A DNA stretch of 64,000 bases, from positions 5,131,470 through 5,195,469 of the forward strand of contig NZ_CP059557.1 of the NCBI RefSeq assembly GCF_022828475.1, given 5' to 3'. A model generated the notes under the pieces. It saw nothing but the letters and a program-made list of their open reading frames with translations, searched no databases and had not been told where the DNA came from. Within the stretch, counting starts at the first letter, position 1; every line of letters begins with the position of its first letter. Shown in pieces: positions 934 to 45,853 of the stretch. The translations under genes and the position numbers were made by a program. The stretch comes from Saccharopolyspora gloriosae. Lineage in GTDB: Bacteria > Actinomycetota > Actinomycetes > Mycobacteriales > Pseudonocardiaceae.

Positions 934-1050
934 GGTAGCGGAACCTCAGTGAGCCTCTCGCTGCGGGATCTTTTTCCCGAGTGGCTCCGCCACGAGGGAA
1001 AAAGCTGTCCTCGCGAGAGGCTCACTGAGAACCCGCCGGTGGTCACCTTT
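934..1050 (+). repeat. Dispersed long palindrome, copy A
   Basis: The perfect outer stem is CTCAGTGAGCCTCTCG (945-960) with CGAGAGGCTCACTGAG (1014-1029). The inner stem is at 970-985 and 989-1004 (CTTTTTCCC, a 2-base internal loop, GTGGC, loop TCC). The flanks are GCGGAACCTCAG on the left and CTGAGAACCCGCCGGTGGTC on the right. Related copies lie at 30258-30480, 39446-39604 and 45747-45853. It contains no gene. It touches the IS481 end, which lies inside the conserved left flank. Confidence 0.9.
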
Positions 1051-1052
1051 TT

Positions 1053-1290
1053 GACGTGGGCTATGTGCTTCGCACATACAGGCACGGCTTCGCCGCAAGG
1101 CACGGCCGTTGGCCGTAAGGCAGGCGGGCTTCGCCGCCCTTTGCGGGCTTCGCCGCTGAGAACCTGCATGTGGTCGGCTTTTCGACGTGGGCTATGTGCT
1201 TTGCACATACAGGCACGGCTTCGCCGCAAGGCACGGCCGTTGGCCGTAAGGCAGGCGGGCTTCGCCGCCCATTGCGGGCTTCGCCGCTGG
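1053..1290 (+). repeat. 131-bp direct repeat made of mini-hairpins (1.8 units)
   Basis: A unit starting GACGTGGGC at 1053 repeats at 1184, so the period is 131 bases; the second copy fades near 1290. Each unit holds several small hairpins: TATGTGC-TTC-GCACATA (TTT loop in the second unit), CGGCTTCGCCG, CGGCC-GTT-GGCCG and GCGGGCTTCGCCGC. One 18-base piece (CGGCTTCGCCGCAAGGCA) is the same unit that is expanded about ten-fold at 45529-45708. Bases 1291-1351 hold nothing recognisable. Confidence 0.85.
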
Positions 1291-1351
1291 AGGGCGTTGC
1301 TTGCTGGGAGGTTTTGTTGCTCGGGTGGCTAGGTCGGATGAGCTTGCGGGG

Positions 1352-2200
1352 TCAGGGGGTTTCGCCTGTTTTGGCAGGGCGGGTGGGGTCTGTCGTCCAG
1401 TGGGACCAGGAGCCGGCGTAAAGGGCTGCCGGGTTGGCCGGGCCGCTGAGGCCTGCGTGTTCCAGGGCCAGCAAGGCCGAGCACGCTGTCACGCCTGAGC
1501 CGCAGTAGGTCGCGACTCGGGAGGTGCCGTCCACGCCTAGTTCGCGGAACAGCGCCGCGACGTCCTCCGGTGGCCGCCATGTCCCGTCCTCGGTGACGTT
1601 GGACGCGAACGGGGCGTTGCGTGCGCCGGGGATGTGGCCGGCCCGCGGGTCAACGGGTTCCACCTCGCCTCGGTATCGCTCAGGTGCGCGGGCGTCGAGC
1701 AGTCGCCCGTCCTCCGCCATCCGCGCCGCCTCGTCCGCGTTGATCACCGGCAGTGAATCCGGGACGACCTGGAAATCCGTCGGCACGACCTCCGGCACCT
1801 CGGCCGTGACCGGGTTTCCTCGCGCGACCCAGGCCCGGTATCCGCCGTCGAGCACCCGGACCCGTGGATGCCCCGCCCATCGCAGCAACCACCAGGCTCG
1901 CGCGGCCGCCGAACCGTTGTCCGCGTCGTAGGCCACGACCTCCCGCTCCGCGGTGATCCCCGCCCGCCGGAACACGGCTTGCAGGTCGGCGGCGGCGGGC
2001 AACGGATGGCGGCCGCCCGCGCCGGGTGGCGCGGAAAGTTCGGTGTCGAGATCCACGAACACCGCGCCCGGTAGGTGATCCTGCTCGTAGTCCTGCCTGC
2101 CGGGCGGCCCCAGCAGGCTCCACCGGACGTCGAGCAGCACCGGCGGGCGCGAACCCGCAAGCTGTTCGGAAAGATCATCCACGCTGATCAGCGGGTCCAT
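1352..2200 (-). CDS. sseA: 3-mercaptopyruvate/thiosulfate sulfurtransferase
   Basis: A 282-residue tandem-rhodanese enzyme that moves sulfane sulfur from mercaptopyruvate or thiosulfate to an acceptor in the cytoplasm. Two rhodanese domains are visible (about 8-125 and 155-270). The catalytic cysteine is Cys233 in the loop CGSGVTA, which is closer to the mercaptopyruvate type than to classical rhodanese (CRKGVTA). I chose the ATG at 2200 because AGGAGG stands just upstream and the protein then begins at the first domain. It is divergent from ideR with a 136-base shared promoter region. The substrate preference is inferred from the loop only. Confidence 0.9.
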   Translation of the reverse strand: MDPLISVDDLSEQLAGSRPPVLLDVRWSLLGPPGRQDYEQDHLPGAVFVDLDTELSAPPGAGGRHPLPAAADLQAVFRRAGITAEREVVAYDADNGSAAARAWWLLRWAGHPRVRVLDGGYRAWVARGNPVTAEVPEVVPTDFQVVPDSLPVINADEAARMAEDGRLLDARAPERYRGEVEPVDPRAGHIPGARNAPFASNVTEDGTWRPPEDVAALFRELGVDGTSRVATYCGSGVTACSALLALEHAGLSGPANPAALYAGSWSHWTTDPTRPAKTGETP

Positions 2201-2336
2201 GTCGACCTCCTGGACGGAATGCGGGACTGAGCCGGAACAGCGGCCCCGAACACTGGAAACGGCTGCTCGGAAGCCACCGACCGGCGGTAGTGCCGCAGGA
2301 CTAGAATCGTGGGTGGGACTGCAACGGGGAGCCAGC

Positions 2337-3035
2337 GTGAACGATCTCATCGATACCACCGAGATGTACCTTCGCACCATTTACGACTTGGAGGAGGAGG
2401 GTGTCGTCCCGCTGCGCGCCCGAATCGCGGAACGCCTGGAACAGAGCGGGCCGACCGTGAGCCAGACCGTGGCTCGGATGGAACGCGACGGACTGCTCAC
2501 CGTGGCCGAGGACCGGCACCTGGAGCTCACCGAGGCGGGGCGTACCCGAGCCGTTCGGGTGATGCGCAAGCACCGGCTCGCCGAGCGGTTGCTGGTCGAC
2601 GTGATCGGCCTGGAGTGGGAACACGTGCACGACGAGGCGTGCCGGTGGGAGCACGTGATGAGCGAGGCGGTGGAACGCAAGCTCGTCGCCCTGCTCGGCA
2701 ACCCCGCCACTTCCCCGTACGGCAACCCGATTCCCGGTCTCGAAGAGCTCGGCGCCGAGCCGCAGCCCGCACCCGTGAACGAGTCCGACCTGCAGCGCGT
2801 CGACGAGATCGCCCGCCAGGGCGGCGGCCGGGCCACGGTATGCCGAATCGCCGAGCACGTGCAGCTCGACCCCGACCTGATGAGCGAGCTCAAGGAAGTC
2901 GGGCTGATGCCCTCCCAGGAGATCGAGATCGTTCCGGTCACCGGAGTGAACAAGCCGATCGAGGTCAACGGCCCCAAGGGCAGCACCCAACTCGCCCCCG
3001 GCATCGCCCACGCCGTCCTGGTCCGCGCCCGGTGA
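2337..3035 (+). CDS. ideR: Iron-dependent repressor IdeR/DtxR
   Basis: A 232-residue metal-sensing repressor. Starting from the GTG at 2337, the numbering coincides with DtxR: Met10, Cys102, Glu105 and His106 (primary site) and His79, Glu83 and His98 (ancillary site) are all present. Residues 1-70 form the winged helix (GPTVSQTVARMERDGL) and the C-terminal part an SH3-like domain. In actinobacteria this protein with Fe(II) represses siderophore and iron-uptake genes. The upstream in-frame extension lacks family similarity and was rejected. Its stop overlaps the galK start (GTGA), so the two are probably cotranscribed. Confidence 0.95.
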   Translation: MNDLIDTTEMYLRTIYDLEEEGVVPLRARIAERLEQSGPTVSQTVARMERDGLLTVAEDRHLELTEAGRTRAVRVMRKHRLAERLLVDVIGLEWEHVHDEACRWEHVMSEAVERKLVALLGNPATSPYGNPIPGLEELGAEPQPAPVNESDLQRVDEIARQGGGRATVCRIAEHVQLDPDLMSELKEVGLMPSQEIEIVPVTGVNKPIEVNGPKGSTQLAPGIAHAVLVRAR

Positions 3036-4210
3036 GCCCCGCGGAGTCCGCCGCCGAAGCGTTCGGCGGCGCGCACGGGCATGCCCCGAGCGCGGTCTGG
3101 TCCGCCCCCGGCCGGGTCAACTTGATCGGTGAGCACACCGACTACAACGACGGTTTTGTGCTGCCGATCGCCTTGCCGCACCGGATCGCGGTAGCCGCCT
3201 CGCCGCGCACCGACGGGATGCTGTCGGTGGCCACCCTCGGCGACGACGACGTGCTGCACCGAGCGGATCCGACGCCGCTGGACGCACTGGCTCCCGGTTC
3301 GCAGACCGGCTGGGCCGCGTACCCCGCCGGAGTCGCGTGGGCGCTGCGCGGACAGGACATCGACATTCCCGGAGCGAACCTGGTCATCGCCGGGGACGTG
3401 CCCGCGGGCGCCGGGCTGTCGTCCTCGCACGCGCTGGAGTGCGCGGTCGCGCTGGCGCTGCTCGACCTGGCCGGTCGGCCCGCGGACGGGCCGGATGCGG
3501 CGCCGCTGTCCGACATAGCCCGCTGGGTGCAGATCTCGGAGAATGACTTCGTCGGCGCCCCCACCGGCCTGTTGGACCAGACCGCCTCGCTGAGTTGCAC
3601 CGAGTCGCACGCGCTGTTCTTCGACGTGCGTTCCGGTGAGCTCGAGCAGATCCCGTTCGACACCGGCGCGGTCGGCCTCGAACTTCTGGTGATCGACACC
3701 CGGGCGAAGCATTCGCACAGTGAGTCCGGGTACGGCGAGCGCCGGCGCGGCTGCGAGCACGCCGCCGAGCTGCTCGGGATCAAGGCGTTGCGGGACGTGT
3801 CCGTCGCGGAACTGGACGGCGCGCTCACCGTGCTGCCGGACGAGCTGCGCCCGCTGGTTCGCCACGTCGTGACCGAGAACGATCGGGTGATCTCCACGGT
3901 CGCCGAACTCGACGCCGGTGATCTCGCCGCGATCGGGCCGCTGCTGACCGCCTCGCACGTGAGCATGCGCGACGACTACCGGATCTCCTGCCTGGAACTG
4001 GACGTCGCGGTGGATGCGGCGCTGGAGGCCGGTGCGCTGGGCGCCCGGATGACCGGCGGCGGTTTCGGCGGGTCGGCCATCGCGCTGGTCCGCGCGCAGG
4101 ACCGGGAGGAGATCGGGCAGGCGGTGCTCAACTCCTATGCGGAGCACGGGCTGACGACGCCGCGGTTGTTCACCGCGACCCCGGCGGGAGGGGCCGGCCG
4201 AGACCGATAG
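3032..4210 (+). CDS. galK: Galactokinase
   Basis: A 392-residue GHMP kinase that phosphorylates D-galactose to galactose-1-phosphate in the Leloir pathway. The galactokinase signature GRVNLIGEHTDYNDG is near the N-terminus, the ATP loop PAGAGLSSSHALE is at about residue 130, and the third GHMP motif GARMTGGGFGGS is near the C-terminus. The GTG start overlaps the ideR stop by four bases. galE follows after 87 bases, but no galT (uridylyltransferase) is visible here, so the pathway must be completed elsewhere. Coupling galK to ideR by overlap is odd, since iron and galactose are not usually linked. Confidence 0.95.
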   Translation: MSPAESAAEAFGGAHGHAPSAVWSAPGRVNLIGEHTDYNDGFVLPIALPHRIAVAASPRTDGMLSVATLGDDDVLHRADPTPLDALAPGSQTGWAAYPAGVAWALRGQDIDIPGANLVIAGDVPAGAGLSSSHALECAVALALLDLAGRPADGPDAAPLSDIARWVQISENDFVGAPTGLLDQTASLSCTESHALFFDVRSGELEQIPFDTGAVGLELLVIDTRAKHSHSESGYGERRRGCEHAAELLGIKALRDVSVAELDGALTVLPDELRPLVRHVVTENDRVISTVAELDAGDLAAIGPLLTASHVSMRDDYRISCLELDVAVDAALEAGALGARMTGGGFGGSAIALVRAQDREEIGQAVLNSYAEHGLTTPRLFTATPAGGAGRDR

Positions 4211-4223
4211 CCTCGCCCGCTCA

Positions 4224-4243
4224 GCCCCGCGGTGCCGCGGGGC
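4224..4243 (+). terminator. Short GC hairpin between galK and galE
   Basis: GCCCCGCGG, a two-base loop, then CCGCGGGGC. There is no T-run. It may attenuate readthrough from galK into galE or be a structural element only. Confidence 0.4.
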
Positions 4244-4297
4244 CGCCGAGTCAGCATTCTCAGGCGAGTCCGACGTCTCAGGAAAGGCAGAACCTCC

Positions 4298-5260
4298 GTG
4301 AAGCTCCTCGTCACCGGTGGTGCGGGATATGTGGGCAGCGTGTGCGCGGCACGTCTGCTGGAGAACGGCCACGACGTCACCGTGGTCGACGACCTCTCGA
4401 CCGGTCACGCCGACGCGGTGCCGCCCGGCTGCACCTTCGTGCAAGCAGACATCGCGGCGGCCGCCGGTGACCTGCTCGCCGACGGGTACGACGGGGTGCT
4501 GCACTTCGCGGCCAAGTCGCTGGTCGGCGAGTCGATGCAGGATCCGCACAAATACTGGCAGGGCAACGTGCTCACCTCGCTGCGCCTGCTGGAGGCGGTT
4601 CGCCGGCACGGCACGCCGCGACTGGTGTTCTCCTCCACCGCCGCCACCTACGGCGAGCCCGACACCGTGCCGATCCCGGAGACCGCTCCGGCCCGGCCCA
4701 CCAACACCTACGGAGCGACGAAGCTCGCGATCGACCACGCGATCAGCTCCTACGCCACGGCCCACGGCCTGGGCGCGGTGAGCCTGCGCTACTTCAACGT
4801 GGCCGGTGCGCACGGCGCGTTCGGCGAGCGGCACACCGTCGAGACGCACCTGATCCCGATCGTGCTGCAGGTCGCGCTGGGGCAGCGCGAGCAGGTGCAG
4901 ATGTACGGCGACGACTGGCCCACCGAGGACGGCACCTGCGTCCGTGACTACATCCACGTCACCGACCTCGCCGACGCGCACCTGCTGGCGCTGGACAACG
5001 CCCGTCCCGGTGAGCACCGGATCTACAACCTGGGTAATGGAACCGGGTTCTCGGTGCAACAGGTGATCAAGACCTGCCGCGAGGTGACCGGTCACCCGAT
5101 CCCGGCCGCGGTGGCACCGCGCCGGGCCGGTGACCCAGCGACGCTGGTGGCCGCCAGCGACCGCGCTCGCGAAGAGCTGTCCTGGAAGCCGAAGCTGGCC
5201 GACCTGTCCGTGATCGTGCGCGACGCCTGGGAGTTCACCCGCGACCGCCAGCAGGCCTGA
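4298..5260 (+). CDS. galE: UDP-glucose 4-epimerase
   Basis: A 320-residue short-chain dehydrogenase/reductase that interconverts UDP-galactose and UDP-glucose. The NAD loop TGGAGYVGS is at residues 6-14, the catalytic Ser/Thr lies in the FSSTAATYG region and the catalytic pair is YGATK (Tyr-x3-Lys). The GTG at 4298 is preceded by AGGAAAGG. The length and motifs match bacterial GalE. It follows galK and supplies galactose catabolism, or UDP-galactose for cell-wall galactan. It converges on the DUF4192 gene across a terminator hairpin. Confidence 0.95.
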
Positions 5261-5266
5261 TCCGTC

Positions 5267-5299
5267 CCGGTGCCCGGCCGCCGAACCACCGGGCACCGG
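5267..5299. terminator. Bidirectional terminator between galE and DUF4192 gene
   Basis: CCGGTGCCCGG (5267-5277) pairs perfectly with CCGGGCACCGG (5289-5299) across an 11-base loop, followed by ATCGGTTTT on the plus strand. It lies between convergent genes. Confidence 0.75.
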
Positions 5300-5334
5300 A
5301 TCGGTTTTCCGTTCGTGGTGAACCACGGCGCCCA

Positions 5335-6420
5335 TCAGGATTCCTCCTCTTCGATCATCAACTGGGCATCGGTCATCGCTTCCTTGGCCATGTCGGCCAT
5401 CTCCTTGGGGGAGACCCCGGTGTCCAGCGCCTGGCGCAGCAGGCGGCCCAGCGTGTGTTCGGGTCGTCCGGCCTCGACTCGTTCCAGCGCCACGCTCGCC
5501 AGCGCGCCTTCACCGCGCAGGTAGGCGAAAAAGGCCAGCAAAGCGCCGACCTCGGCGACCTCCGGTTCCGGTGCTTTGCGCACGAGGCTCAGCCACAGCT
5601 GTTCCGCGGCCATCGCCGAGTCCCCCAGCGCCACCCCGAGGCAGAGATCGCGGACCCGGTGGTCGGACAGCGCGAGCAGGATGCGGAGCTGGTCGTCTTC
5701 GGTCAACGCCTCCCCCGCCGCCGTCCGGCGGATCCCGGCGAGGGTGATGGCCACATCTCGGTGCACGCGGCCGCTTTCCGGCTCCCGCTCGACGTCCTCG
5801 ATCATCGCGGCGAGCCGCGCCGACCAGCGGGCGACGGCTCGCTCGGATTCCGGCGCGACCAGCCGTTGCAGCTCCTCGCGGCTGTCGAAGGTGACCGAGC
5901 CGGACGCGGCCATCGCGGCGCCGAGCGCGGTGCGCTTCGGGTCGGGAATGCGGCCGGCGCACACGGGGTCGTCGTAGCACTGCCACGATCCGCCCGCCTC
6001 CAGCCGATCGGCCCAGAGCTCGTGCAGCACCTCGATTCCGGCTTCGGCCAACCCTTCCCGGAGCAATGCGATCAGTTCGAGCTCGGGAGCCTCGACATGT
6101 TCGTCCACTTCGGACCCTTCGGGCGGCGGACCGCCCGGGTCGTGTCCGGCGGTTCCGGATCCGGCGACCACCGCGATGACGCCGGTGATGCCCCGCCGGA
6201 TCAGCGGGCCGGTGGAGACGTATTCGACCAGTGCACGGCGATGTTCCGGCGGCGGTAGGTCCAGCCTCAGCGTGAGACCGAACGTCGCGGCGTCACCGGT
6301 GGTGTGCAGGCCGATCAGGATCAGTGAATCGGCGGGGATGAATCCGAGCAGGTGCGGGACGGCGGCCAGCACCTCGCCGGCGTCGCCGATGCGGATGCGT
6401 GCGTTCAGCGGAGTGGTCAT
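5335..6420 (-). CDS. DUF4192 family protein
   Basis: A 361-residue protein of the actinobacterial DUF4192 family, recognisable from the N-terminal stretch with LLGFIPADSLILIGL followed by a long alpha-rich C-terminal part. No catalytic motif, signal peptide or membrane segment is seen; the C-terminus is acidic (ending EEEES). The ATG at 6420 is preferred because it begins at the conserved block; an in-frame extension to 6501 has no family similarity. It stands alone, convergent with galE and 105 bases downstream of the next minus-strand gene. Function unknown. Confidence 0.85.
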   Translation of the reverse strand: MTTPLNARIRIGDAGEVLAAVPHLLGFIPADSLILIGLHTTGDAATFGLTLRLDLPPPEHRRALVEYVSTGPLIRRGITGVIAVVAGSGTAGHDPGGPPPEGSEVDEHVEAPELELIALLREGLAEAGIEVLHELWADRLEAGGSWQCYDDPVCAGRIPDPKRTALGAAMAASGSVTFDSREELQRLVAPESERAVARWSARLAAMIEDVEREPESGRVHRDVAITLAGIRRTAAGEALTEDDQLRILLALSDHRVRDLCLGVALGDSAMAAEQLWLSLVRKAPEPEVAEVGALLAFFAYLRGEGALASVALERVEAGRPEHTLGRLLRQALDTGVSPKEMADMAKEAMTDAQLMIEEEES

Positions 6421-6525
6421 ACCCAGAACATCGGTGGTGCCGGGCGAAGCGCCGCAGGGTCGAGTTCCGAATCTGTGGATGGATCGGCCACCTGTGGACA
6501 ACTTTGCCGCCGCACACCGGAAAAC

Positions 6526-9879: not shown

Positions 9880-10060
9880 GAACCCTCCCGAGTACGCCGG
9901 ATCATCAGCAGATCGCACCGGTGCTGCCGGATGCGAGCGCCGAACTGAACAACACTCGAACAGCCCATGCCGATCGGTCACGCGTGGTCCCGGCGGCGGG
10001 CCGGGCACTGCGAAGCCGCCGGTACAGTCGAAGAACCACTTCCCGCGAAGGAGTCAGGTC

Positions 10061-11782: not shown

Positions 11783-11786
11783 GCGC

Positions 11787-28711: not shown

Positions 28712-29362
28712 GTGCACGTCATCATCGACAACCTGCCGCTGTATCTGAGCGGGCTGCAGCGCACGCTGCAGATCTGCCTGTACGCCGGGGTGCTCGCGCT
28801 GGTCCTGGGGACCGTGATCGCGGCGTTCCGGGTGGCCCCGCTGCCACCGTTGCGCGCCACCGGCACCTCTTGGGTCACCGTGTTCCGCAACTGCCCGCTG
28901 ACCGTGGTGCTGTTCTTCATGGCCTTCGGGCTGCCCGAACTGGGCCTCAACGGCTCGTACTTCTGGTTCGGCACCATCGGCCTCGCGCTCTACACCTCGG
29001 CGTTCGTGTGCGAGGCGATCCGCAGCGGCATCAACGCCGTACCGCCGGGCCAGGCTGAGGCGGCACGGGCGATCGGCCTCGGGTTCGGCCAGACGCTGGG
29101 GCTGGTCGTGCTGCCGCAGGCGGTGCGCACCGTGGTGCCGCCGCTGGGCAACGTGATCATCGCGATGATCAAGAACTCGGCGATCGTGGGCGCGTTCGGC
29201 GTCGGCGGTGACCTGTTCGCCGTCGGCGACACGCTGACCTCGGCGCGCGGGGAGGCCGTGCTGCCGGTGCTCATCGGGGTGGTCCTCGGCTACCTGGTGA
29301 TCACGATCCCGGCCGGGCTGCTGCTCGGCGTCCTGGAGCGGAAGGTGGCGATCGCCCGATGA
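28712..29362 (+). CDS. gluC: Glutamate ABC transporter, permease
   Basis: A 216-residue membrane protein with about five helices. The ABC permease coupling (EAA) loop is GQAEAARAIGLGFGQTLGLVVLPQA. I chose the GTG at 28712 because GGAGAG precedes it; an ATG at 28679 would start two bases past the hairpin and lacks a ribosome site. It pairs with GluD to form the pore. The stop overlaps gluD (ATGA). Confidence 0.92.
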   Translation: MHVIIDNLPLYLSGLQRTLQICLYAGVLALVLGTVIAAFRVAPLPPLRATGTSWVTVFRNCPLTVVLFFMAFGLPELGLNGSYFWFGTIGLALYTSAFVCEAIRSGINAVPPGQAEAARAIGLGFGQTLGLVVLPQAVRTVVPPLGNVIIAMIKNSAIVGAFGVGGDLFAVGDTLTSARGEAVLPVLIGVVLGYLVITIPAGLLLGVLERKVAIAR

Positions 29363-30222
29363 CGAACTCGGTGCTCTACGAAGCTCCCGGGCCGGTGGCC
29401 AAGCGGCGCGGCCTGGTGGTCAGCGTCGTCGTGGGCGTGCTGCTGCTGGCACTGCTGACGTGGGTGCTGGTGACGCTCGGTGTGAACGGCCAGCTCACCG
29501 TGGAGAAGTGGGGGCCGCTGATCGACCCCACCAACGGGACGTTCACCGCGCTGTGGGGCCTGCTCGGCGCCGGGCTCGGCAACACGCTGCTCGCGGCCGT
29601 GCTGGCGATGGCGTTCTCACTGGTCATCGGCACGCTGCTCGCGGTTTCGCGGGTGATCGCGGCGCCCTGGTACCGGTGGGCCGTGGTCGGCCTCGTCGAG
29701 CTGCTGCGCGGCGTGCCGGTCGTCATCGCGGTCTTCTTCGCCAGCCGCGTGCTGCCGTCGTTCGGCCTGGACATGCCGGTGATGTGGTACCTGGTGATCG
29801 GGCTGACCGCGTACAACTCGGTGATCATCGCCGAGATCGTGCGCGCCGGGATCCTGTCGCTGCCGCGCGGCCAGAGCGAGGCGGCTTACGCGATCGGGCT
29901 GCGGCGCTCGCAGGTGCTGCGCACCGTGGTGCTGCCGCAGGCGTTCCGGGCGATGCTGCCCGCACTGATCAGCCAGCTCGTGGTGATCGTGAAGGACACC
30001 TCGCTGGGCTTCATCATCTCGTACGTGGATCTGGTGCGGCAGGGGCAGATCGTCATCCAGAACCTGAACAACCCGATCCAGACGTACTTCGTCGTCGGCG
30101 TGGTGTTCGTCCTGATCAACTACGCGTTGAGCCGAGCCGCGGTGTTCACCGAACGCCGACTCAGCCAGGGTCGCAAGGGCGGATTCACCGCGCCCCGTGT
30201 GACGGAGACCGGAACCGCTTAG
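29359..30222 (+). CDS. gluD: Glutamate ABC transporter, permease
   Basis: A 287-residue permease with an N-terminal membrane helix (about 16-38), a further five helices and the coupling loop GQSEAAYAIGLRRSQVLRTVVLPQA. The N-terminal cytoplasmic stretch and Arg-rich C-terminus are typical of GluD. It overlaps the gluC stop by four bases, so it is translationally coupled. It is the last gene of the operon; palindromic repeats follow. Confidence 0.92.
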   Translation: MTNSVLYEAPGPVAKRRGLVVSVVVGVLLLALLTWVLVTLGVNGQLTVEKWGPLIDPTNGTFTALWGLLGAGLGNTLLAAVLAMAFSLVIGTLLAVSRVIAAPWYRWAVVGLVELLRGVPVVIAVFFASRVLPSFGLDMPVMWYLVIGLTAYNSVIIAEIVRAGILSLPRGQSEAAYAIGLRRSQVLRTVVLPQAFRAMLPALISQLVVIVKDTSLGFIISYVDLVRQGQIVIQNLNNPIQTYFVVGVVFVLINYALSRAAVFTERRLSQGRKGGFTAPRVTETGTA

Positions 30223-30257
30223 AAGTCCCCGCACGATGACCTGCGCAGTGCGTCGTT

Positions 30258-30381
30258 CAGCGGAACCTCAGCGGCTTCCCTCACTGCGGGATCCATTTCT
30301 CACGCAGCAGCCCTACTCAGCGAAATCCGGGTCCGGGCTGCTGTCCGCGCGAGGAAGCCGCTGAGCACCCGCCGGTGGTCC
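30258..30381 (+). repeat. Dispersed long palindrome, copy C (diverged)
   Basis: Outer stem CTCAGCGGCTTCC (30267-30279) with GGAAGCCGCTGAG (30353-30365), perfect over 13 bases but with a sequence different from copies A and B. The inner stem is also changed: CAGCAGCCC (30305-30313) with GGGCTGCTG (30335-30343). The conserved parts are CGGAACCTCAG at the left edge, CTGCGGGATC after the left arm and CACCCGCCGGTGGTC after the right arm. It lies in the convergent gap after gluD. Confidence 0.85.
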
Positions 30382-30480
30382 ATCTGCTCAAGCTGGTCAC
30401 TGCTCAGCGGCTCCGCCGCTGACGGGGCAACTGTCAGAAGATCCTTCTGCAACGTCCCCGGAGGAGCCGCTGAGCGACCC
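30382..30480 (+). repeat. Linker plus second palindrome, copy D
   Basis: The linker at 30382-30402 is the complement of 39461-39481 apart from its edges. It is followed by a 13-base perfect stem, GCTCAGCGGCTCC (30402-30414) with GGAGCCGCTGAGC (30463-30475). Inside are CAGAAG-ATC-CTTCTG and a GGGG/CCCC pairing. It may also terminate transcription of gluD and of the convergent gene. Confidence 0.8.
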
Positions 30481-37094: not shown

Positions 37095-37119
37095 GACGCC
37101 CCTGTACCGATCGACTACC

Positions 37120-37137
37120 GCTGCCCGATCGGGCAGC
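37120..37137. other. Perfect 18-base palindrome upstream of HAD gene
   Basis: GCTGCCCGATCGGGCAGC, 26 bases upstream of the HAD start and about 120 bases past the recX stop. It could be an operator or a small terminator for recX. Confidence 0.4.
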
Positions 37138-37255
37138 CTAGCGAAAACCGCCGATCTCCCGTCATCCCCCGACCGAGCAAGGCGCCGTGGACCTGCGTCA
37201 ACCGATCACTCAGCGGGATCGTCGGGAACGGCGATGCGGGTGAAGTTCGTTGCGC

Positions 37256-38131
37256 TCAAGGTGTTTCTGAGGCATCCGCACCGCCTTCGAGGTCTGATCG
37301 GTCGAGTTCGTCTTTGACCACGCGGAAGGCCATGCCCTCCGAGTAGCCCTTGCGGGCCAGCATTCCGACCAGCCTGCGCAGCCGTTTCTCCGGATCGTCC
37401 ACGTTGATCGAGCGGAGCTTGCGGCGCACCAGCTCGCGCGCCCGCTCCTCCTCGGCGTCAGCGTCCACAGTGGAGAGAGCTTCGGCGACCAGGTGTTCCT
37501 CAACGCCTTTGCGGCGCAGCTCGTAGCCCAGCGCCTTGCGGCCCAGGCCTTGGTTGCGCTGCCGCTCGCTGACCCATGCCTCGGCGAACTCGGCGTCGTC
37601 CACCAAGCCCGCGTCGACGAACTTCTGCAACACCGCGTCCGCGACGTCTTCGTCGATCTCCTTGCGCAGCAAGGCCTGGCGCAGCTCGGCCCGGCTGCGG
37701 GCGCGCACCGCCAGCAGCCGGTACACCGTGTCGCGGGCCAACGCCTCCGGAGACTGCGGCACCCCCGGCGGCCGTTCGTCCTGCTGCCGCCGCTTGCCGG
37801 TGCGCCCCTGCGACCGGGTCGCTGCGGAATCCGGGGACGCGGGCTCCGGGGACTGCGAGGTTTCCGCCATCGCGGTGCGGCGGCGGCGCTTGCCGGTGCC
37901 CCGCGCGGCGGCGCCGTCCGGTGCGGCGCCGGCCTCCGGTGGTGACGCCGGCGTCGGTGCGGTCTCCGCTTCGGATGAGCTCAGCCCCGCACCGGTGCCC
38001 GGCGACGCGGGCGCGTGGTCGGTACTGCGCCACACGCCCCGCCCGGAACGGCCGTCCCGCTGCCCGCCGGACCCCGAAGCGCCCGCGCGCGACCGCGATC
38101 GGGAGAACTCCGCGGAGTCGTCTCCTGACAC
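37256..38131 (-). CDS. recX: Regulatory protein RecX
   Basis: A 291-residue inhibitor/modulator of RecA filaments. The RecX three-helix repeats occupy about 130-285 (YRLLAVRARSRAELRQALL, VDDAEFAEAWVSERQRNQGLG, RLVGMLARKGYS). The first 120 residues are Ser/Pro/Ala-rich low complexity with basic clusters, much longer than in mycobacterial RecX (about 174 residues). The GTG start at 38131 lies eight bases past the recA stop, so the two are cotranscribed and SOS-induced. A later start is possible, but no strong ribosome site was seen inside the extension. Confidence 0.92.
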   Translation of the reverse strand: MSGDDSAEFSRSRSRAGASGSGGQRDGRSGRGVWRSTDHAPASPGTGAGLSSSEAETAPTPASPPEAGAAPDGAAARGTGKRRRRTAMAETSQSPEPASPDSAATRSQGRTGKRRQQDERPPGVPQSPEALARDTVYRLLAVRARSRAELRQALLRKEIDEDVADAVLQKFVDAGLVDDAEFAEAWVSERQRNQGLGRKALGYELRRKGVEEHLVAEALSTVDADAEEERARELVRRKLRSINVDDPEKRLRRLVGMLARKGYSEGMAFRVVKDELDRSDLEGGADASETP

Positions 38132-38139
38132 CGCCGGAC

Positions 38140-39183
<1,044 letters not shown>

Positions 39184-39340
39184 CGGGGGTCCACCTCGGT
39201 CAAGTCGAACTTCGTCGTGTGCGCACGACGCTACGGGTAGGGACCGACACTCCGGTGGACTGCCCTGATCACCCGGCCGCCCGCCTTCCGGCGACGGGTC
39301 CGGCGAACACCGAGGTCCGATCCGCACATCCGATCATAGG

Positions 39341-39354
39341 CGAACGGATGTTCG
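39341..39354. promoter_or_regulatory. LexA (SOS) box upstream of recA
   Basis: CGAACGGATGTTCG is a perfect CGAAC-N4-GTTCG palindrome, 158 bases upstream of the recA start. Confidence 0.88.
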
Positions 39355-39445
39355 ATCATCGAGCCGACACGCCAACACCGTCCCTCTTCCGCATGAACCA
39401 TGATCGCGATTGAAGGCGCCTTCAGCTTTTGATCTTCATCTTGTT

Positions 39446-39604
39446 AGCGGCGAAGCCGCTGAGCAGTGACCAGCTTGAGCAACCGGCACCGCGGCGGGTT
39501 CTCAGCCGTCTTCTCGCGAGGACGGCTTTTTCCCTCGTGGCAGAGGCCACTCGGGAAAAAGATCCCGCAGCGAGAAGACAGCTGAGGTTCCGCCACCCGG
39601 CCAC
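39446..39604 (-). repeat. Dispersed long palindrome, copy B, with linker
   Basis: It begins with a small hairpin AGCGGC-GAA-GCCGCT (39446-39460) and the linker at 39461-39500. The long palindrome has outer arms CTCAGCCGTCTTCTCG (39501-39516) and CGAGAAGACAGCTGAG (39571-39586), with 15 of 16 pairs. The inner arms, 39526-39541 and 39546-39561, are the same as in copy A. It ends GGTTCCGCCACCCGGCCACC, the uninterrupted form of the site into which IS481 has inserted at 45860. It lies between recA's promoter and the DUF3046 gene, on the strand opposite to copy A. The rest of 39184-39626 holds the recA promoter and SOS box. Confidence 0.88.
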
Positions 39605-39626
39605 CAAAGCAGCCCACGAAAGAGGA

Positions 39627-39821
39627 TCAACGCCGAGCAGCCGGGACTTCGAAGCTTTCGCAGAGGGCTAGCCACACCTGCTTCGGCGAAAGCCCCGCCT
39701 CCAGTGCCTGGTCCACGGTGCGACCGCCGAGCTCCGACATCACGTGGTCCTCGGCGAGCATCTCGGCTCGCAACCGGCCGAACTCCTCGGCCATGCGTTC
39801 GCGGAAGTCGGTGTGTCGCAT
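39627..39821 (-). CDS. DUF3046 protein (Rv2738c-like)
   Basis: A 64-residue helical protein starting MRHTDFRERM. The family (DUF3046) is encoded beside recA in most actinobacteria, as Rv2738c in M. tuberculosis. Function unknown. The ATG at 39821 gives the family's normal length; the frame stays open upstream but loses similarity. Here it is separated from recA by a repeat insertion of about 160 bases. Confidence 0.88.
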   Translation of the reverse strand: MRHTDFRERMAEEFGRLRAEMLAEDHVMSELGGRTVDQALEAGLSPKQVWLALCESFEVPAARR

Positions 39822-39863
39822 CGAGCCCAGCCTACCGAGGGCGTCCGCGGGTACCGTCGTGGT

Positions 39864-39989
39864 GTGCTGCCGATGCAAGCCGACCCGACCGGACTGTCCA
39901 GCCCGCTGGGGCAACTCGTGATCGCGGCGATGCTGCTGGTCGCGATCATCGTTGCGCTGCGCTGGCTGTGGAACCAGCGCGGACGCTGA
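39864..39989 (+). CDS. Short single-pass membrane protein
   Basis: A 41-residue reading frame from the GTG at 39864 (or the ATG at 39873). It has a single hydrophobic segment (LVIAAMLLVAIIVALRWLW) and a basic end (NQRGR). It is divergent from the DUF3046 gene, 42 bases away. No ribosome site is evident, so a leaderless message is likely if it is expressed. I do not recognise a family. Confidence 0.45.
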   Translation: MLPMQADPTGLSSPLGQLVIAAMLLVAIIVALRWLWNQRGR

Positions 39990-40196
39990 GCACGCCGCGC
40001 CCGGCCGCACGGTGCGCTCGAATTCGTCGGCCAGCGCGTCCGGCGTCAGCCGCCCGTCCCGGTTCGGGGCCGGCACCATGCCCACCAGCGGCCGGTCGGC
40101 GACGGTGAACACCAGCGTCCCCGTGGTCTCCCCCGCGACCGCGCGATACCGGCCCGAGTAGCCGTTGCCGGACCATCGACAACACGCGCACCGGTT
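39985..40196 (-). pseudogene. Gene remnant without a start codon
   Basis: On the minus strand the frame after a TAA at 40199-40197 reads about 70 codons with almost every third base G or C (NGYSGRYRAVAG ... LVFTVADRPLVGMVPAPNR ... LTPDALADEFERTV). This strong codon bias fades where it meets the small plus-strand gene. The first 29 codons contain no ATG, GTG or TTG; the first GTG is in the middle of the apparent domain. That fits a 5'-truncated, decaying gene. I do not recognise the product. Confidence 0.45.
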
Positions 40197-40330
40197 TTAT
40201 CCCTCCGTAGCCGGATTCGGGGCGAACTCACCCGTTCTGCGGAATGTTGTCACGCCGGACGATCACCAATGGGCGGATCGGGCGAATCGTCGGCGTCGGC
40301 GATGTCGGTGCCGTGGTCCAGCATGGAGGG

Positions 40331-43300
40331 GTGAGCAACCCGCTGGACGACTTCTCCCCCGCGACCCGCGAGTGGTTCCGGGGCGCGTTCGACGCGCCGA
40401 CGCAGGCTCAGGCCGGGGCGTGGCAGGCGATCGGCGCGGGTGAGCACGCGCTGGTCGTGGCGCCGACCGGGTCCGGGAAGACGCTCGCCGCGTTCCTGTC
40501 CGCCCTGGACGGCCTGGCTTCCGCCCCGCCTCCGGAAGAGCCGAAGCGGCGCTGCCGCGTGCTGTACGTGTCGCCGTTGAAGGCGCTCGCGGTGGACGTC
40601 GAGCGCAACCTGCGCGCCCCGCTCACCGGGATCCGGCAAGCCACCCAACGCCACGGCGGGGTGCCGCCGGAGATCCGGGTCGGGATGCGGACCGGGGACA
40701 CGCCTGCCGACGAACGGCGCGGCTTCAACCGGAAACCCCCGGACGTGCTGGTGACCACCCCGGAGTCGCTGTTCCTGCTGCTGACCTCGGCGGCACGGGA
40801 GTCGCTGCGCGGCGTGGAGACGGTGATCGTGGACGAGGTGCACGCGGTGGCGGGCACCAAACGCGGAGCGCACCTGGCGTTGTCGCTGGAGCGGCTGGAC
40901 GAGCTGCTGGCACGACCGGCGCAGCGGATCGGGTTGTCGGCCACGGTGCGCCCGGTCTCCGAGGTGAGCACGTTCCTCGGCGGCGGCCGCCCGGTGCGCA
41001 CGGTGCAGCCGGAGCACGCCAAGCAGGTGCAGGTCACCGTCGAGGTCCCGGTGCCGGACCTGGCCGAGCTGGGGCAGCCGACCGGCGAGGTGACGGGTTC
41101 GGCCGCGGGCGCCGAGCAGCGCACCTCGATCTGGCCGTCGGTGCAGGAACGCGTCCTCGACCTGATCGGACGACACCGGTCGACGATCGTGTTCGCGAAC
41201 TCGCGGCGGCTCGCGGAGCGGCTGACGGCGGGCATCAACGAACTCGCCACCGAGCAGGCCGGGGAGACCGCCGAGCAGACCGGGAAGTTCCCGGCGGAGG
41301 CGGTGGGCGGTTCCGGTGTCACCTCCGGAGCGGCGGTGACCGTGGCACGAGCGCACCACGGGTCCATGTCGAAGGAACAGCGCTCGGTGGTCGAAGAGGA
41401 GTTGAAGTCCGGCCGGCTGCCCTGCGTGGTCGCGACCTCCTCGCTGGAGCTGGGCATCGACATGGGCGCGGTGGACCTGGTGGTGCAGGTGGAGACGCCG
41501 CCGAGCGTCGCTTCCGGGATGCAGCGCATCGGCCGGGGCGGGCACCAGGTGGGGGCGATCTCGCGCGGGGTCGTGTTCCCGAAGTTCCGGGGCGACCTGG
41601 TGGGTTGCGCGGTGGTGGCGGAACGGATGGCGGCCGGGCTGATCGAGTCGTTGTCGTTCCCGCGGAATCCGCTGGACGTGCTGGCTCAGCACGTCGTGTC
41701 GATGGTGGCGATGGAATCGTGGCCGCTGGAGTCGCTGGCCAGGGTGGTTCGGCGCGCGGCACCGTTCGCGGGGCTGCCGGATTCCGCGCTGTACGCGGTG
41801 CTGGACATGCTGGCGGGCCGGTACCCGAGCGAGGAGTTCGGCGAGCTGCGGGCGCGCATCGTGTGGGACCGGGTGCAGGACGAGCTGTGGGCGCGGCCGG
41901 GCGCGCAACGGCTGGCGGTGACCTCGGGCGGCACCATCCCCGATCGGGGCTTGTTCACGGTGACCACGCCAGGTGACGAGGAGGCCGGTCGCGGCGGCGT
42001 GCGGGTCGGTGAGCTCGACGAGGAGATGGTCTACGAGTCGCGGGTGGGCGACACGTTCCTGTTGGGCACCTCGTCGTGGAAGGTGCAGGACATCACGCAC
42101 GACCGGGTCGTCGTGGTGCCCGCGCCGGGCCAGGCCGCGCGGATGCCGTTCTGGAAGGGCGATTCCCCTGGCCGGCCGCTGGAGCTGGGCCGGGCGCTGG
42201 GCGCCTTCGTGCGGGAAGTGGTGGCCGCGGACCGGGAGTCGGCGACCGAGCGGATGGCGCGCGCCGGGTTGGACGAGTGGGCGCGGGACAACCTGCTGGC
42301 GTACCTGGCGGAGCAGCGGGAGGCGACGCGGCACGTCCCGGACGATCGGACGATCGTGGTGGAGCGGTTCCGCGACGAGCTCGGCGATTGGCGGATGGTG
42401 GTGCATTCGCCGTTCGGTGCGCAGGTCAACGGGCCGTGGGGTTTGGCCATCGGGGCTCGGTTGCGGGAGCGGCGCGGCATCGATCCGCAGGTCGCGTCCT
42501 CGGACGACGGGATCGTGGTGCGGCTGGCGGACGCGCTGGACGAGTCGGGCGCGGACGTGCTGCCGACGGCGGAGGACGTGCTGCTGTCCCCGGACGAGGT
42601 GCACCAGGTGATCACCGATGAGGTCGGTGGTTCGGCGCTGTTCGCCGCGCGGTTCCGGGAGTGCGCCGCGCGGGCGTTGTTGCTGCCGCGCCGGGATCCG
42701 CGGAAGCGCTCACCGCTGTGGCAGCAGCGGCAGCGCTCGGCGCAACTGCTGGCGGTGGCGGCGCAGTACGAGCAGTTCCCGATCGTGCTGGAGGCGATGC
42801 GGGAATGCGTGCAGGACGTCTACGACGTGCCGGGTTTGACCGAACTGATGTCGCAGGTCGCCGCCCGCAAGGTGCGGGTGGTGGAGGTGGAGACGCCGTC
42901 GCCGTCGCCGTTCGCGCGCAGCCTGCTGTTCGGCTACATCGGCATGTTCCTGTACGAGACGGACGCGCCGCTGGCTGAGCGGCGGTCGGCGGCGTTGAGC
43001 CTGGACTCGACGTTGCTGGCCGAGCTGCTCGGTTCGGAGGCGTTGCGGGAGCTGCTGGATCCGGAGGTGGTCGCCGAGGTCGAGCGGCAGCTGCAACGGC
43101 TCGTCCCGGAACGGCACGCGAAGGACGCGGAGTCCGCGGCGGACCTGCTGCGGTTCCTGGGCGATCTGTCCACGGCGGAGGCCGCGGAGCGCGGCATCCG
43201 TCCAGAGTGGCTGGCGGAACTCCAAGCGCAGCGGCGAGTCCTGGAAGTGCGGATCGCCGGGGAGTCCCGGTGGATCGCGATCGAGGACGCGGGCAAGGTC

Positions 43301-44917
43301 CGGGATGCGCTGGGCGTCGCGTTGCCGGTGGGCGTGCCGGAGGCGTTCACCGAGCCGGTCACGGATCCGTTGGGAGAACTGCTGATCCGGTACGCGCGCT
43401 GCCGTGGCCCGTTCGCCGCGGAGTCCGCGGCGCGGCGGTTCGGCTTGGGCGTCGCGGTGGTGCACGACGTGCTGGATCGGCTGGCGGGTTCGGGCCGGTT
43501 GGTGCGCGGCGAGTTGCGCCCGCTGGAGGCCGGTGGCGGCCGGGCTCTGGAGTACTGCGACGCGGAGGTGCTGCGGCGGTTGCGGCGCGGTTCGCTGGCG
43601 CGGTTGCGGGCCGAGGTGGAACCGGTGGAACCCGCTGCGCTGGGCCGGTTCCTGCCGGTGTGGCACGGAGTGGGCGCCCGGTTGCGCACGGCGCCCACGG
43701 TGGATGACGTGTATTCGGTGGTGGAGCAGTTGGCGGGCGCCCCGGTTCCGGCGAGCGCGTTGGAGTCGCTGGTGCTGCCCGCCAGGTTGCCGGGCTATTC
43801 GCCTGCGCTGCTGGACGAGTTGACTTCGACCGGCGAGGTGACCTGGGTGGGGTCGGGTTCGCTGGCCGGTGGTGACGGGTGGATCGCGCTGGCTCCCACC
43901 GATGTGGCGGATCTGTTGTTGCCGGATCTTCCGGAGGCGACGGCGGAAACCCCGTTGCACGAAGCCATTCTGTCCACTTTGGATGGTGGGGCTCAGTTCT
44001 TCCGGCCGTTGGCCGACCGGGCGGGGGCGATCGTCGTGGAAGGCGGCGAATCGGCACCCGCCGACGACGCGGTGATCTCCGCGCTGTGGGATCTGGTGTG
44101 GTCCGGCAAAGCCACCAACGACACGCTCGCTCCGCTGCGCGCACTGGTCTCCGGCAAGGGGGCCGCGCACAAGCCGCGGCGCAACGCGCCGCGCGGCAGG
44201 TATGCGCGGTTGCGCGCCGGGCGCCCGTCGATGCCGAGTCGCAGCGGGCCTCCGACGGTGTCCGGCAGGTGGTCGCTGGCTCCGGCGCCGGCGGCGGAAC
44301 CGACGCGGCGGGCGCACGCCCGGGCCGAGGCCTTCCTGGAACGGCACGGGGTGCTGACCCGCGGCGCGCTGGAGACGGAGCGGGTCACCGGCGGGTTCTC
44401 CGCCGTGTACAAGGTGTTGCGGGCGATGGAGGAGTCCGGGCGGTGCCGTCGCGGTTACGTCGTCGAGGGTTTGGGGGCGGCGCAGTTCGCGGTGCCCGGC
44501 GCGATCGACCGGGTGCGTGCGCTGTCCGGCGCGGACGAACGGGAGGACCGTTCGGCGGTGGTGCTGGCGGCGGCGGATCCCGCACAGCCCTACGGTGCCG
44601 CGTTGCCGTGGCCGGATCCGGTCGGCGACACCCGGCACCGGCCGGGCCGCAAGGCCGGTTCGCTGGTGGTGCTGGTCTCCGGCGCGGCCGTGCTGTACGT
44701 GGAGCGCGGCGGGAAGTCGCTGCTGTCGTTCACCGAAGACGAGCAACCGCTGCGGGACGCGGCGGACGGTCTCGCGCGGGCGGTGCGCGAAGGCTGGCTG
44801 GAGCAGCTTGCGGTACAACGGACCGACGGCGCAGGCGCTTGGGGATCCCGAATGGCCGACATCCTCACCGACGCCGGATTCCGCGCCACCCCGAAAGGCC
44901 TCCGCCTGCGCGCGTGA
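40331..44917 (+). CDS. lhr: Lhr-type ATP-dependent DNA helicase
   Basis: A 1528-residue superfamily 2 helicase that moves 3' to 5' along DNA in DNA repair. Motif I APTGSGKT is near residue 43, the DEVH box (VIVDEVHAV) near 168, motif III LSATVRP, and the C-terminal RecA-like domain has HHGSMSKEQR and QRIGRGGHQ. A long Lhr-specific winged-helix and C-terminal region follows. Size matches mycobacterial Lhr (about 1510). The GTG at 40331 begins the conserved SNPLDDFSPATREWF, but GGAGG is only one base away from it, so a slightly earlier start is possible. Its stop abuts the next convergent gene. Confidence 0.95.
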   Translation: MSNPLDDFSPATREWFRGAFDAPTQAQAGAWQAIGAGEHALVVAPTGSGKTLAAFLSALDGLASAPPPEEPKRRCRVLYVSPLKALAVDVERNLRAPLTGIRQATQRHGGVPPEIRVGMRTGDTPADERRGFNRKPPDVLVTTPESLFLLLTSAARESLRGVETVIVDEVHAVAGTKRGAHLALSLERLDELLARPAQRIGLSATVRPVSEVSTFLGGGRPVRTVQPEHAKQVQVTVEVPVPDLAELGQPTGEVTGSAAGAEQRTSIWPSVQERVLDLIGRHRSTIVFANSRRLAERLTAGINELATEQAGETAEQTGKFPAEAVGGSGVTSGAAVTVARAHHGSMSKEQRSVVEEELKSGRLPCVVATSSLELGIDMGAVDLVVQVETPPSVASGMQRIGRGGHQVGAISRGVVFPKFRGDLVGCAVVAERMAAGLIESLSFPRNPLDVLAQHVVSMVAMESWPLESLARVVRRAAPFAGLPDSALYAVLDMLAGRYPSEEFGELRARIVWDRVQDELWARPGAQRLAVTSGGTIPDRGLFTVTTPGDEEAGRGGVRVGELDEEMVYESRVGDTFLLGTSSWKVQDITHDRVVVVPAPGQAARMPFWKGDSPGRPLELGRALGAFVREVVAADRESATERMARAGLDEWARDNLLAYLAEQREATRHVPDDRTIVVERFRDELGDWRMVVHSPFGAQVNGPWGLAIGARLRERRGIDPQVASSDDGIVVRLADALDESGADVLPTAEDVLLSPDEVHQVITDEVGGSALFAARFRECAARALLLPRRDPRKRSPLWQQRQRSAQLLAVAAQYEQFPIVLEAMRECVQDVYDVPGLTELMSQVAARKVRVVEVETPSPSPFARSLLFGYIGMFLYETDAPLAERRSAALSLDSTLLAELLGSEALRELLDPEVVAEVERQLQRLVPERHAKDAESAADLLRFLGDLSTAEAAERGIRPEWLAELQAQRRVLEVRIAGESRWIAIEDAGKVRDALGVALPVGVPEAFTEPVTDPLGELLIRYARCRGPFAAESAARRFGLGVAVVHDVLDRLAGSGRLVRGELRPLEAGGGRALEYCDAEVLRRLRRGSLARLRAEVEPVEPAALGRFLPVWHGVGARLRTAPTVDDVYSVVEQLAGAPVPASALESLVLPARLPGYSPALLDELTSTGEVTWVGSGSLAGGDGWIALAPTDVADLLLPDLPEATAETPLHEAILSTLDGGAQFFRPLADRAGAIVVEGGESAPADDAVISALWDLVWSGKATNDTLAPLRALVSGKGAAHKPRRNAPRGRYARLRAGRPSMPSRSGPPTVSGRWSLAPAPAAEPTRRAHARAEAFLERHGVLTRGALETERVTGGFSAVYKVLRAMEESGRCRRGYVVEGLGAAQFAVPGAIDRVRALSGADEREDRSAVVLAAADPAQPYGAALPWPDPVGDTRHRPGRKAGSLVVLVSGAAVLYVERGGKSLLSFTEDEQPLRDAADGLARAVREGWLEQLAVQRTDGAGAWGSRMADILTDAGFRATPKGLRLRA

Positions 44918-45430
44918 TCACAGGTCGTTGAACGGTTTCGCGTATTCGAAGGTGCCGGTGAGTTCCGGGGTGTGGGCGGTGAGCGCGCGGGCTTGGAAGT
45001 GCGCGGCCCACTCGGGGTCCGGTGGGGCGATGCCGAGTTCCGTGGACGGCACGAACCCGAAACGCGGGTAGTACTCGGTGTGGCCGAGCAGCACGACGAG
45101 CGGTTCGTCGCGCGCGTCGGCGGCGGCCAGCACGGCGTGCATCAGCGCACTGCCGACGCCGCGGCGCTGCACCCGGCTCAGCACCCCGATCGGCCCCAGC
45201 CCCAGCGCGGGACGACCGTCCACGTGGCCGCGCGTCGCCACGACGTGACCAACGATCTGCCCGTCCGGCTCGACCGCCACGATCGACAGCGCAGGTATCC
45301 ACCCGACATCGGCCCGCAACGCATCAACGAGCCCGACCTCGGCCGGAGTCCCTTCCGAACCGGCAAAAGCATCGCGGTGAACATCCCGCACAGCTCCCAC
45401 ATCAGCCCCGCACTCACGCCTCAACAACAT
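44918..45430 (-). CDS. GNAT-family N-acetyltransferase
   Basis: A 170-residue acetyl-CoA-dependent transferase. The acetyl-CoA loop is VQRRGVGSALM, preceded by LGLGPIGVLS, and the C-terminal part has YYPRFGFVPSTELGI. The pattern resembles YhbS-type acetyltransferases. The ATG at 45430 gives the family start (LLRRECGADVGAV). Substrate unknown. It is transcribed away from the repeat array and converges on lhr with no bases between the stop codons. Confidence 0.88.
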   Translation of the reverse strand: MLLRRECGADVGAVRDVHRDAFAGSEGTPAEVGLVDALRADVGWIPALSIVAVEPDGQIVGHVVATRGHVDGRPALGLGPIGVLSRVQRRGVGSALMHAVLAAADARDEPLVVLLGHTEYYPRFGFVPSTELGIAPPDPEWAAHFQARALTAHTPELTGTFEYAKPFNDL

Positions 45431-45516
45431 GCACCAACCATGCCAACCCCCAACTCCCCCGACAAACCAATTGACCACCACCCTTCAGCTGTGGAATTGG
45501 CAGCCTCGTCTCGCCA
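45431..45516. other. Promoter region of the acetyltransferase
   Basis: 86 bases between the acetyltransferase start and the tandem array, lower in GC than its surroundings (many CAAC/AACC words). No gene is seen. Confidence 0.5.
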
Positions 45517-45712
45517 GCGGCAAAGCCGTGCCTTGCGGCAAAGCCGTGCCTTGCGGCAAAGCCGTGCCTTGCGGCGAAGCCGTGCCTTGCGGCAAAGCCG
45601 TGCCTTGCGGCAAAGCCGTGCCTTGCGGCGAAGCCGTGCCTTGCGGCAAAGCCGTGCCTTGCGGCAAAGCCGTGCCTTGCGGCGAAGCCGTGCCTTGCGG
45701 CGAAGCCGTGCC
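45517..45712 (+). repeat. 18-bp tandem array (10 full units plus partial ends)
   Basis: The unit TGCCTTGCGGCAAAGCCG repeats without gaps from 45529 to 45708, with partial units at both ends. Each unit holds a CGGC-AAA-GCCG or CGGC-GAA-GCCG mini-hairpin. The one variable base (A or G in CAAAG/CGAAG) follows the order A,A,A,G,A,A,G,A,A,G,G counting the partial first unit, which points to amplification of 54-bp triplets. The same unit occurs once per repeat beside copy A. It can be read as a hexapeptide repeat, but I see no gene. Confidence 0.92.
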
Positions 45713-45746
45713 TGGATGTGCGAAGCACATAGCCCACGTCAAGAAG

Positions 45747-45853
45747 GTGACCACCGGCGGGTTCTCAGTGAGCCTCTCGCGAGGACAGCTTTTTCCCTCG
45801 TGGCGGAGCCACTAGGGAAAAAGATCCCGCAGCGAGAGGCTCACTGAGGTTCC
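45747..45853 (-). repeat. Dispersed long palindrome, copy A2
   Basis: Outer arms CTCAGTGAGCCTCTCG (45764-45779) and CGAGAGGCTCACTGAG (45833-45848), identical to copy A. Over about 180 bases with the flanking TATGTGC hairpin it differs from copy A at about three positions. It ends with GGTTCC then GCTACC and the IS481 left end. Confidence 0.92.

Follow-up and report, generated by a model that had tools for sequence, protein, structure and literature searches.

What are the long palindromes that recur in this stretch of the Saccharopolyspora gloriosae chromosome, and why do their arms stay complementary when the arms themselves change? The window analysed here is the whole stretch of 64,000 nucleotides (nt) on contig NZ_CP059557.1. 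An original prediction, made from its letters, named five palindromes (two of type A, and one each of B, C and D) with similar flanks and loop and with outer stems that differ but remain paired, and took this covariation to mean selection for a fold and not for a sequence. Elements A1, A2, B and C were found to belong to a large family of hairpins whose stem covariation is genuine and spans genera. They are probably non-autonomous, dispersed DNA-hairpin repeats in the style of repetitive extragenic palindromes (REPs) and REPINs, homogenised within each genome by recombination between copies and served by a putative trans-acting factor.

A hairpin family with covarying stems

Element A1 (938..1036, + strand) is a complete palindrome, GCGG-AAC-CTCAG ... 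CTGAG-AAC-CCGC, with an outer stem of the TGAGCCTC type. A2 (45757..45855, −) is of the same type, B (39494..39593, −) has the outer stem CTGTCTTC/CCGTCTTC, and C (30260..30372, +) combines an CGGCTTCC-type outer stem with a longer inner arm. Sequences, flanks, loop and self-matching outer stems of all four were as predicted, and a second copy 100% identical to A1 is present elsewhere in the S. gloriosae genome. The proposed fifth copy, D (30402..30475, no strand assigned), is no family member. It is made up of the tail hairpin of C and an oppositely facing leader-like fragment, lacks GCGGAACC, CTGCGGGATC and GCTGTCCTCGCGAG, and gave no element in the family profile search. Judged by eye, and with similar scars at other sites, D is probably a deletion relic.

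Each unit comprises a leader of about 30 nt, a hairpin of about 100 nt and a tail, with ends that are not sharply defined. The hairpin base GCGG/CCGC is followed by a symmetric loop, with AAC unpaired on both sides, and by an outer stem of 17 bp; about eight of its pairs vary, CTCAG and the final four being near-constant. Next comes a conserved unequal loop, TGCGGGATC opposite GCTGTCCTC, and beyond it the inner and then the apical stem. Of 322 copies readable at this place, 268 have GTRG immediately ahead of the hairpin (GTAG in 131, GTGG in 137). Folding as DNA was good for both strands. In the DNA folds of three loci (L206, L121 and L127), the 3' base AACCCGC could alternatively pair with GCGGGTT further downstream, and the resulting hairpin would compete with the base stem.

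Covariation was evident in two separate alignments. Among 45 copies from S. gloriosae, 94.1% of cells pair, and 91 cells are changed on both sides compared with 31.9 in shuffles. Thirty copies from other genera (as grouped by the search tool), aligned without structure, gave 94.8% pairing cells and both-side changes at 21 of 38 pairs. Double-change cells numbered 159 in this alignment, against 51.3 in shuffles and at most 23 with the partner slid. As the copies are related, the shuffle comparisons are not probabilities. Variation lay in three inner stems between conserved loops; the base stem and loop boxes hardly varied. The claim that a fold rather than a sequence is preserved thus holds for the stems, which vary with pairing, and fails for the loop boxes, which are conserved in sequence; part of the variation, moreover, is recombination between copies.

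A minority of copies are chimeric, with arms drawn from two stem types. In the 30-copy alignment, a GCCTCC left and a GTCGGC right inner arm with two central mismatches recur in Amycolatopsis bartoniae, Sciscionella and two other genomes (loci L119, L128, L206, L231, L241 and L280). This inner stem reads as a recombinant that has itself multiplied.

Further copies, as expected in the original prediction, were abundant. The 5' pattern CGGAACCTCAGN{0,30}GGGATC gave 193 exact matches (95 + 98) in the S. gloriosae genome, a single 6.88-Mb contig, and the reversed-pattern control gave 0. The 3' end, with up to 3 mismatches, matched 289 times against 7 in the control. A covariance-model search of related genomes had been suggested at the outset. 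Using a model built from the 45 own-genome copies, with at most 14 candidates scored per genome, it detected the hairpins in 66 of the 249 genomes sampled from that bacterial family (14 of 46 genera). When as many as 123 candidates were scored, copy number in 30 chosen genomes from 10 genera ranged from 3 to 123 or more. All 32 matching genomes in an order-level sample of 397 lie within that bacterial family, a result whose weight is limited by the share of outside genomes in the sample not being shown. An exact scan of named genomes yielded, among the matches listed, loci of Saccharopolyspora and Sciscionella, both Pseudonocardiaceae, and of Amycolatopsis, which we take to belong there too. 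In this sampling, the hairpins are found only in Pseudonocardiaceae, which are soil actinomycetes.

A phage origin was rejected, the exact pattern having 0 matches in viral contigs. Searching Rfam with cmscan gave no match at the gathering score in the window or in 20 loci of other genomes, which agrees with the initial view that no named family fits. The PubMed Central (PMC) literature, which leaves most subscription papers uncovered and absence unproven, yielded no account of repeats like these from Saccharopolyspora, Amycolatopsis or Pseudonocardiaceae. The repeat family is apparently undescribed so far.

Position behind genes and turnover between relatives

Placement was analysed in 40 tiles of 20 kb from the S. 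gloriosae genome, with genes called by a simple purpose-written script that missed, for instance, the DUF3046 gene beside B. One of the 104 element places in these tiles lay inside a called gene, and 101 had two called neighbours. A same-strand gene lay upstream at 74 of the 101, and for 62 of the 74 its stop codon preceded the hairpin by 6–56 nt (the median over all 74 is 33 nt; distances run to the profile start, about 4–5 nt ahead of the hairpin base). Sense copies with a stop codon 15–60 nt before them made up 60 of 102, compared with 13.8 expected had they been scattered at random over the same gaps. A same-strand gene also lay upstream of 100 of the 139 elements classed in loci of other genomes, and for 85 of these 100 the stop codon was 15–60 nt away (median 35); the loci include the congeners S. 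sp. NFXS83 and S. sp. HNM0986 and hold at least one element twice (L118/L304 overlap). Among gaps of at least 130 nt, elements occupied 38 of the 63 convergent ones, 53 of the 217 tandem ones and 8 of the 87 divergent ones, fractions that are not genome-wide, the tiles having been picked for holding elements. Within the window, the hairpin base of B lies 33 nt past the stop of the DUF3046 gene (39627–40112, −), and that of C 37 nt past the stop of an ABC-transporter permease gene (29359–30222, +).

Host genes were diverse: of 695 proteins encoded next to elements, the largest homologous clusters took in 9. The idea of a regulon of specific genes was rejected on this ground. The IS481-type transposase was the sole recognised mobile-element gene among the 30 largest clusters. 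One host gene, which we take from its sequence to encode adenylosuccinate synthase, has an element behind it in three species (L257 in S. spinosa, L315 in S. sp. NFXS83, and own loci). The stop trinucleotide was rejected as a target because copies not behind a stop codon show, by eye, no regular TGA, TAG or TAA there. The 3' position may reflect tolerance, a barrier or terminator role, or targeting.

Occupancy and stems of individual sites changed between congeners. Syntenic stretches of three more distant ones (G101, G079 and G046) had no element at the S. gloriosae sites compared (the A2 site was not comparable), and these genomes carry 43 to at least 123 copies elsewhere. Two others, G120 and G137, are 94–95% identical in syntenic stretches. 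For the 22 elements in the G137 stretches, a counterpart was present in G120 for 15 and absent for 5, and 2 were unmappable; of the 28 elements in G120, 12 were left without a partner, in several cases because the G137 stretch stopped short of them. Orientation was the same at 14 of the 15 sites filled in both. Ten sites had both stems readable. None of these was identical and one had one common arm; 68 of 160 arm letters differed, against a divergence of 5.0% in the flanks upstream. Stem types were mixed differently from genome to genome, a few of them being common to several. At one convergent gap (L071:761 and its G120 counterpart L132), the elements of S. gloriosae and G120 face in opposite directions.

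Nine orthologous pairs from G079 and G046 were 97.6–99.8% identical over the aligned loci. The apical hairpin had been exchanged in four of them, with replacements from the same small set and with leader and tail mostly kept. At a further site, the hairpin alone is missing in G046, leader and tail being kept; with GCGG repeats bounding it, this precise loss needs nothing beyond ordinary slippage at a palindrome. The whole unit is missing in G079 at another site, one site is common to both genomes, and at one more the G046 contig passes from GGTAGC into an insertion sequence (IS) and then ends. Some sites bear deletion scars where hairpins were lost between short repeats.

Both A1 and A2 are broken at the hairpin base by an IS481-type IS, which the original prediction had missed. 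The copy in the leader of A2 (45860..46966, +) has GCTACC at both sides (45854–45859 and 46967–46972, a 6-bp repeat), and part of the same IS stands in the leader of A1 (1..933, −); Pfam LZ_Tnp_IS481 and rve matches were obtained for the window IS copy. Because this IS interrupts both elements, positions 1–1106 and 45687–46792 are mutual inverted copies. GGTAGC/GCTACC at the hairpin base has been entered repeatedly by IS481-type elements (also at L009, L022 and L045), and in G046 a similar IS was seen by eye at the same place of two further elements (L106 and L325). IS481 was rejected as a mobiliser of the hairpins, its ends being unrelated, and is read as a parasite of the site.

The remaining leader of A2 (46967..47012, −) reaches the stop of an open reading frame (47013–47945, −), and that of C (30223..30259, +) runs from stop codon to hairpin base. 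The tail of A1 (1037..1286, +) is of type 1 (GACGTGGGCTATGTGCTTCGCACATACAGGCACGG...) and includes a 131-nt tandem duplication (1025–1286, 94%) that takes in the 3' end of A1 plus the tail. A tandem array of short C(TTCG)G hairpins, with the 18-nt unit TGCGGCGAAGCCGTGCCT (45517–45713), lies in the tail of A2 (45517..45756, −); similar units stand behind many type-1 copies by eye. C has a type-2 tail with the hairpin CAGCGGCTCCGCCGCTG (30398..30424, +; partly by eye).

The folding strand and the upkeep of pairing

The few mismatches in the outer stems carry information on which strand folds. Among 371 distinct elements, 146 were unreadable and 3 with unequal arms were left out; outer arms were perfect in 136 of the 222 readable ones. 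Sense G.U-type mismatches (T.G/G.T) numbered 15, compared with 69 of the A.C type (C.A/A.C). Elements with more than two mismatches (8 of 222) were left out of these counts, and for loci fetched by exact pattern the constant 3' part was fixed by that pattern; copies in one genome are also related, and p-values overstate. A recurrent C.A at stem position 9 was present in 34 of 122 elements outside S. gloriosae and 1 of 100 inside, in many different stems. Outside S. gloriosae and without this C.A, the counts were 5 G.U against 23 A.C (4 against 17 for unique arm pairs). A sense fold under selection should give more T.G/G.T than C.A/A.C, which was not seen, so that sense RNA is unlikely to be the target of selection. 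The wobble bias suggests bottom-strand pairing, outside the own genome only, and an antisense transcript may be the folded species.

This pattern bears directly on the possibility of a structured RNA in 3' untranslated regions, acting in termination, stability or regulation and kept by selection on the fold of the host-gene transcript. Such an RNA would account for the sense position some 33–35 nt after stop codons, the distribution over convergent, tandem and divergent gaps, and the strong covariation with conserved internal loops. We consider it unlikely. Apart from the mismatches, which also disfavour the small RNA or terminator first proposed if read in sense, the host genes are diverse, elements come, go and face either way at orthologous gaps, and Rfam gave no match. 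Compensation could also arise with no selection on a fold, through template switching between arms (quasipalindrome correction) together with gene conversion. The many perfect outer arms, the near-identical copies within genomes and the existence of recombinant arms are what such a process would leave. Arm-to-arm copying should, however, erase unequal internal loops, which are instead conserved across genera, and the C.A irregularity keeps reappearing in stems that otherwise vary; this explanation appears very doubtful to us.

The replacement of hairpins at fixed sites, and the one site where a hairpin is precisely missing from an intact leader and tail, raise the possibility of an attC-like substrate for dedicated hairpin exchange or site-specific recombination on the folded bottom strand, with a stop-proximal receiving site. 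The wobble bias and conserved stem irregularity outside the own genome fit this proposal, as do the direct repeats GGCGGTGCGGGT seen by eye on either side of the hairpin in other genera and a location after stop codons that resembles that of gene cassettes. However, none of the 249 genomes had an integron integrase (TIGR02249) above cut-off; the weaker matches, which turned up in every one of them and in each of 14 controls, are presumably other tyrosine recombinases. Neither attC core boxes (by eye) nor cassette arrays were seen, no partner gene was identified, and slippage suffices for the precise loss. We regard this role as quite improbable. A dedicated enzyme that recognises the conserved loops and bottom-strand irregularity, and inserts or exchanges hairpins just behind stop codons, is likewise improbable. 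If it existed, it would represent a system of hairpin exchange belonging to neither the TnpA-REP nor the integron-integrase class, with hundreds of chromosomal sites per genome turned over and stems drifting freely.

We favour dispersed REP/REPIN-style repeats homogenised by recombination. Copies would spread to new 3' flanks of genes, and those in one genome would overwrite one another by short-tract gene conversion through the conserved boxes. Such intragenomic conversion would give each species its own mix of stem types. Pairing would be kept because a folded single strand, perhaps the bottom one, is handled by a putative nuclease or transposase or by a replication or recombination process. 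Copies near stop codons would be tolerated there and may serve as 3'-end barriers.

Several observations weigh against this account. Within S. gloriosae the mismatch bias is absent without the position-9 C.A (10 G.U against 12 A.C). The persistence of chimeric stems and the recurrence of one mismatched pair of inner arms mean that strict pairing is not needed everywhere, and compensated arms could derive in part from intrastrand copying and not from selection. The tight distance to the stop codon is unexplained by mobility alone, and the single present/absent pair for a whole unit showed no clear target-site duplication. No mobilising gene was found, in searches that did not extend to reverse transcriptases and other recombinases. 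Y1 transposases were mildly enriched, with 20 of the 66 element genomes carrying one compared with 30 of the remaining 183.

The Y1 (TnpA-REP) profile PF01797 gave 0 matches in S. gloriosae, and Y1 was absent also from the copy-bearing congeners G101, G120 and G137. In element genomes with a Y1 gene, its neighbourhood (6–8 kb) held an element in 1 of 20 cases, 180 nt away and scoring 30.6 bits. The search for a co-occurring TnpA-REP or integrase gene, also proposed at the outset, thus yielded none linked to the hairpins; the REP- or attC-like role once suggested fits in style and lacks the matching enzymes.

These hairpins form a large, apparently uncatalogued repeat family in the 3' flanks of actinomycete genes and, at fixed sites, preserve a natural history of very fast sequence turnover with compensation. 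In pairs of close strains, palindrome spread, recombination and the upkeep of pairing can be tested directly where the known transposase, TnpA-REP, is absent. In the genomes of an industrially used group, the hairpins further serve as landing sites for IS elements and may be hot spots of recombination.

Comparison with known systems

ERIC, YPAL and other enterobacterial palindromes resembling miniature inverted-repeat transposable elements are about 100–170 bp long, intergenic and hairpin-forming. The present family is alike in size, intergenic place and hairpin, in a comparison made by description only and with no target-site duplication shown here. We know of no fixed stop-codon distance or swapped stem types in ERIC/YPAL-type repeats.

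An attC site is a folded imperfect palindrome directly after a stop codon, with a variable stem and conserved ends, of which the bottom strand is used. Its core boxes, GTTRRRY and RYYYAAC, pair at the base. By eye, these boxes are absent from the present elements, the base of which is GCGG-AAC/AAC-CCGC. Unlike attC sites, the elements are singly dispersed, and their host genes stay syntenic in relatives without an element. A strong hairpin placed about 33 nt beyond the stop codon, and frequent where genes converge, also recalls intrinsic terminators. In contrast to these, the elements have conserved loop sequences, and their stems are mostly not followed at once by a T-run (by eye). They are present or absent between congeners, and some stand behind an apparently normal terminator (by eye).

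Among REP-type repeats, compensatory changes are described in the hairpin spacer of REPINs (PMC3116915), and in E. coli REPs a mismatch bulge in the stem is required and the GTAG before the hairpin matters (PMC8266576). GTAG REPs often provide the stop codon of flanking open reading frames (PMC3733652), and IS elements insert into REPs (PMC8450116). The present hairpins have a stem irregularity like that of E. coli REPs and, like REPs, are targets of IS elements. The preceding GTRG resembles the REP GTAG, but is true GTAG only in part, as counted above. REPs measure 20–40 nt or form inverted pairs, whereas the present unit is a single hairpin of about 100 nt with several stems. Unlike REPs linked to REP-associated tyrosine transposases, the own genome has no Y1, and the transposase gene is not flanked by elements where it occurs; unlike REPs and REPINs, stems are replaced at shared sites within 5% divergence. 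Since length and design differ, Y1 is absent or unlinked, and integron integrase is below cut-off, we assign the family to neither REP nor attC. It is a REP-like variant for which no partner was found, and has in common with REPs and REPINs that its members are high-copy extragenic palindromes, often by gene ends, that combine conserved parts with a freely varying paired part.

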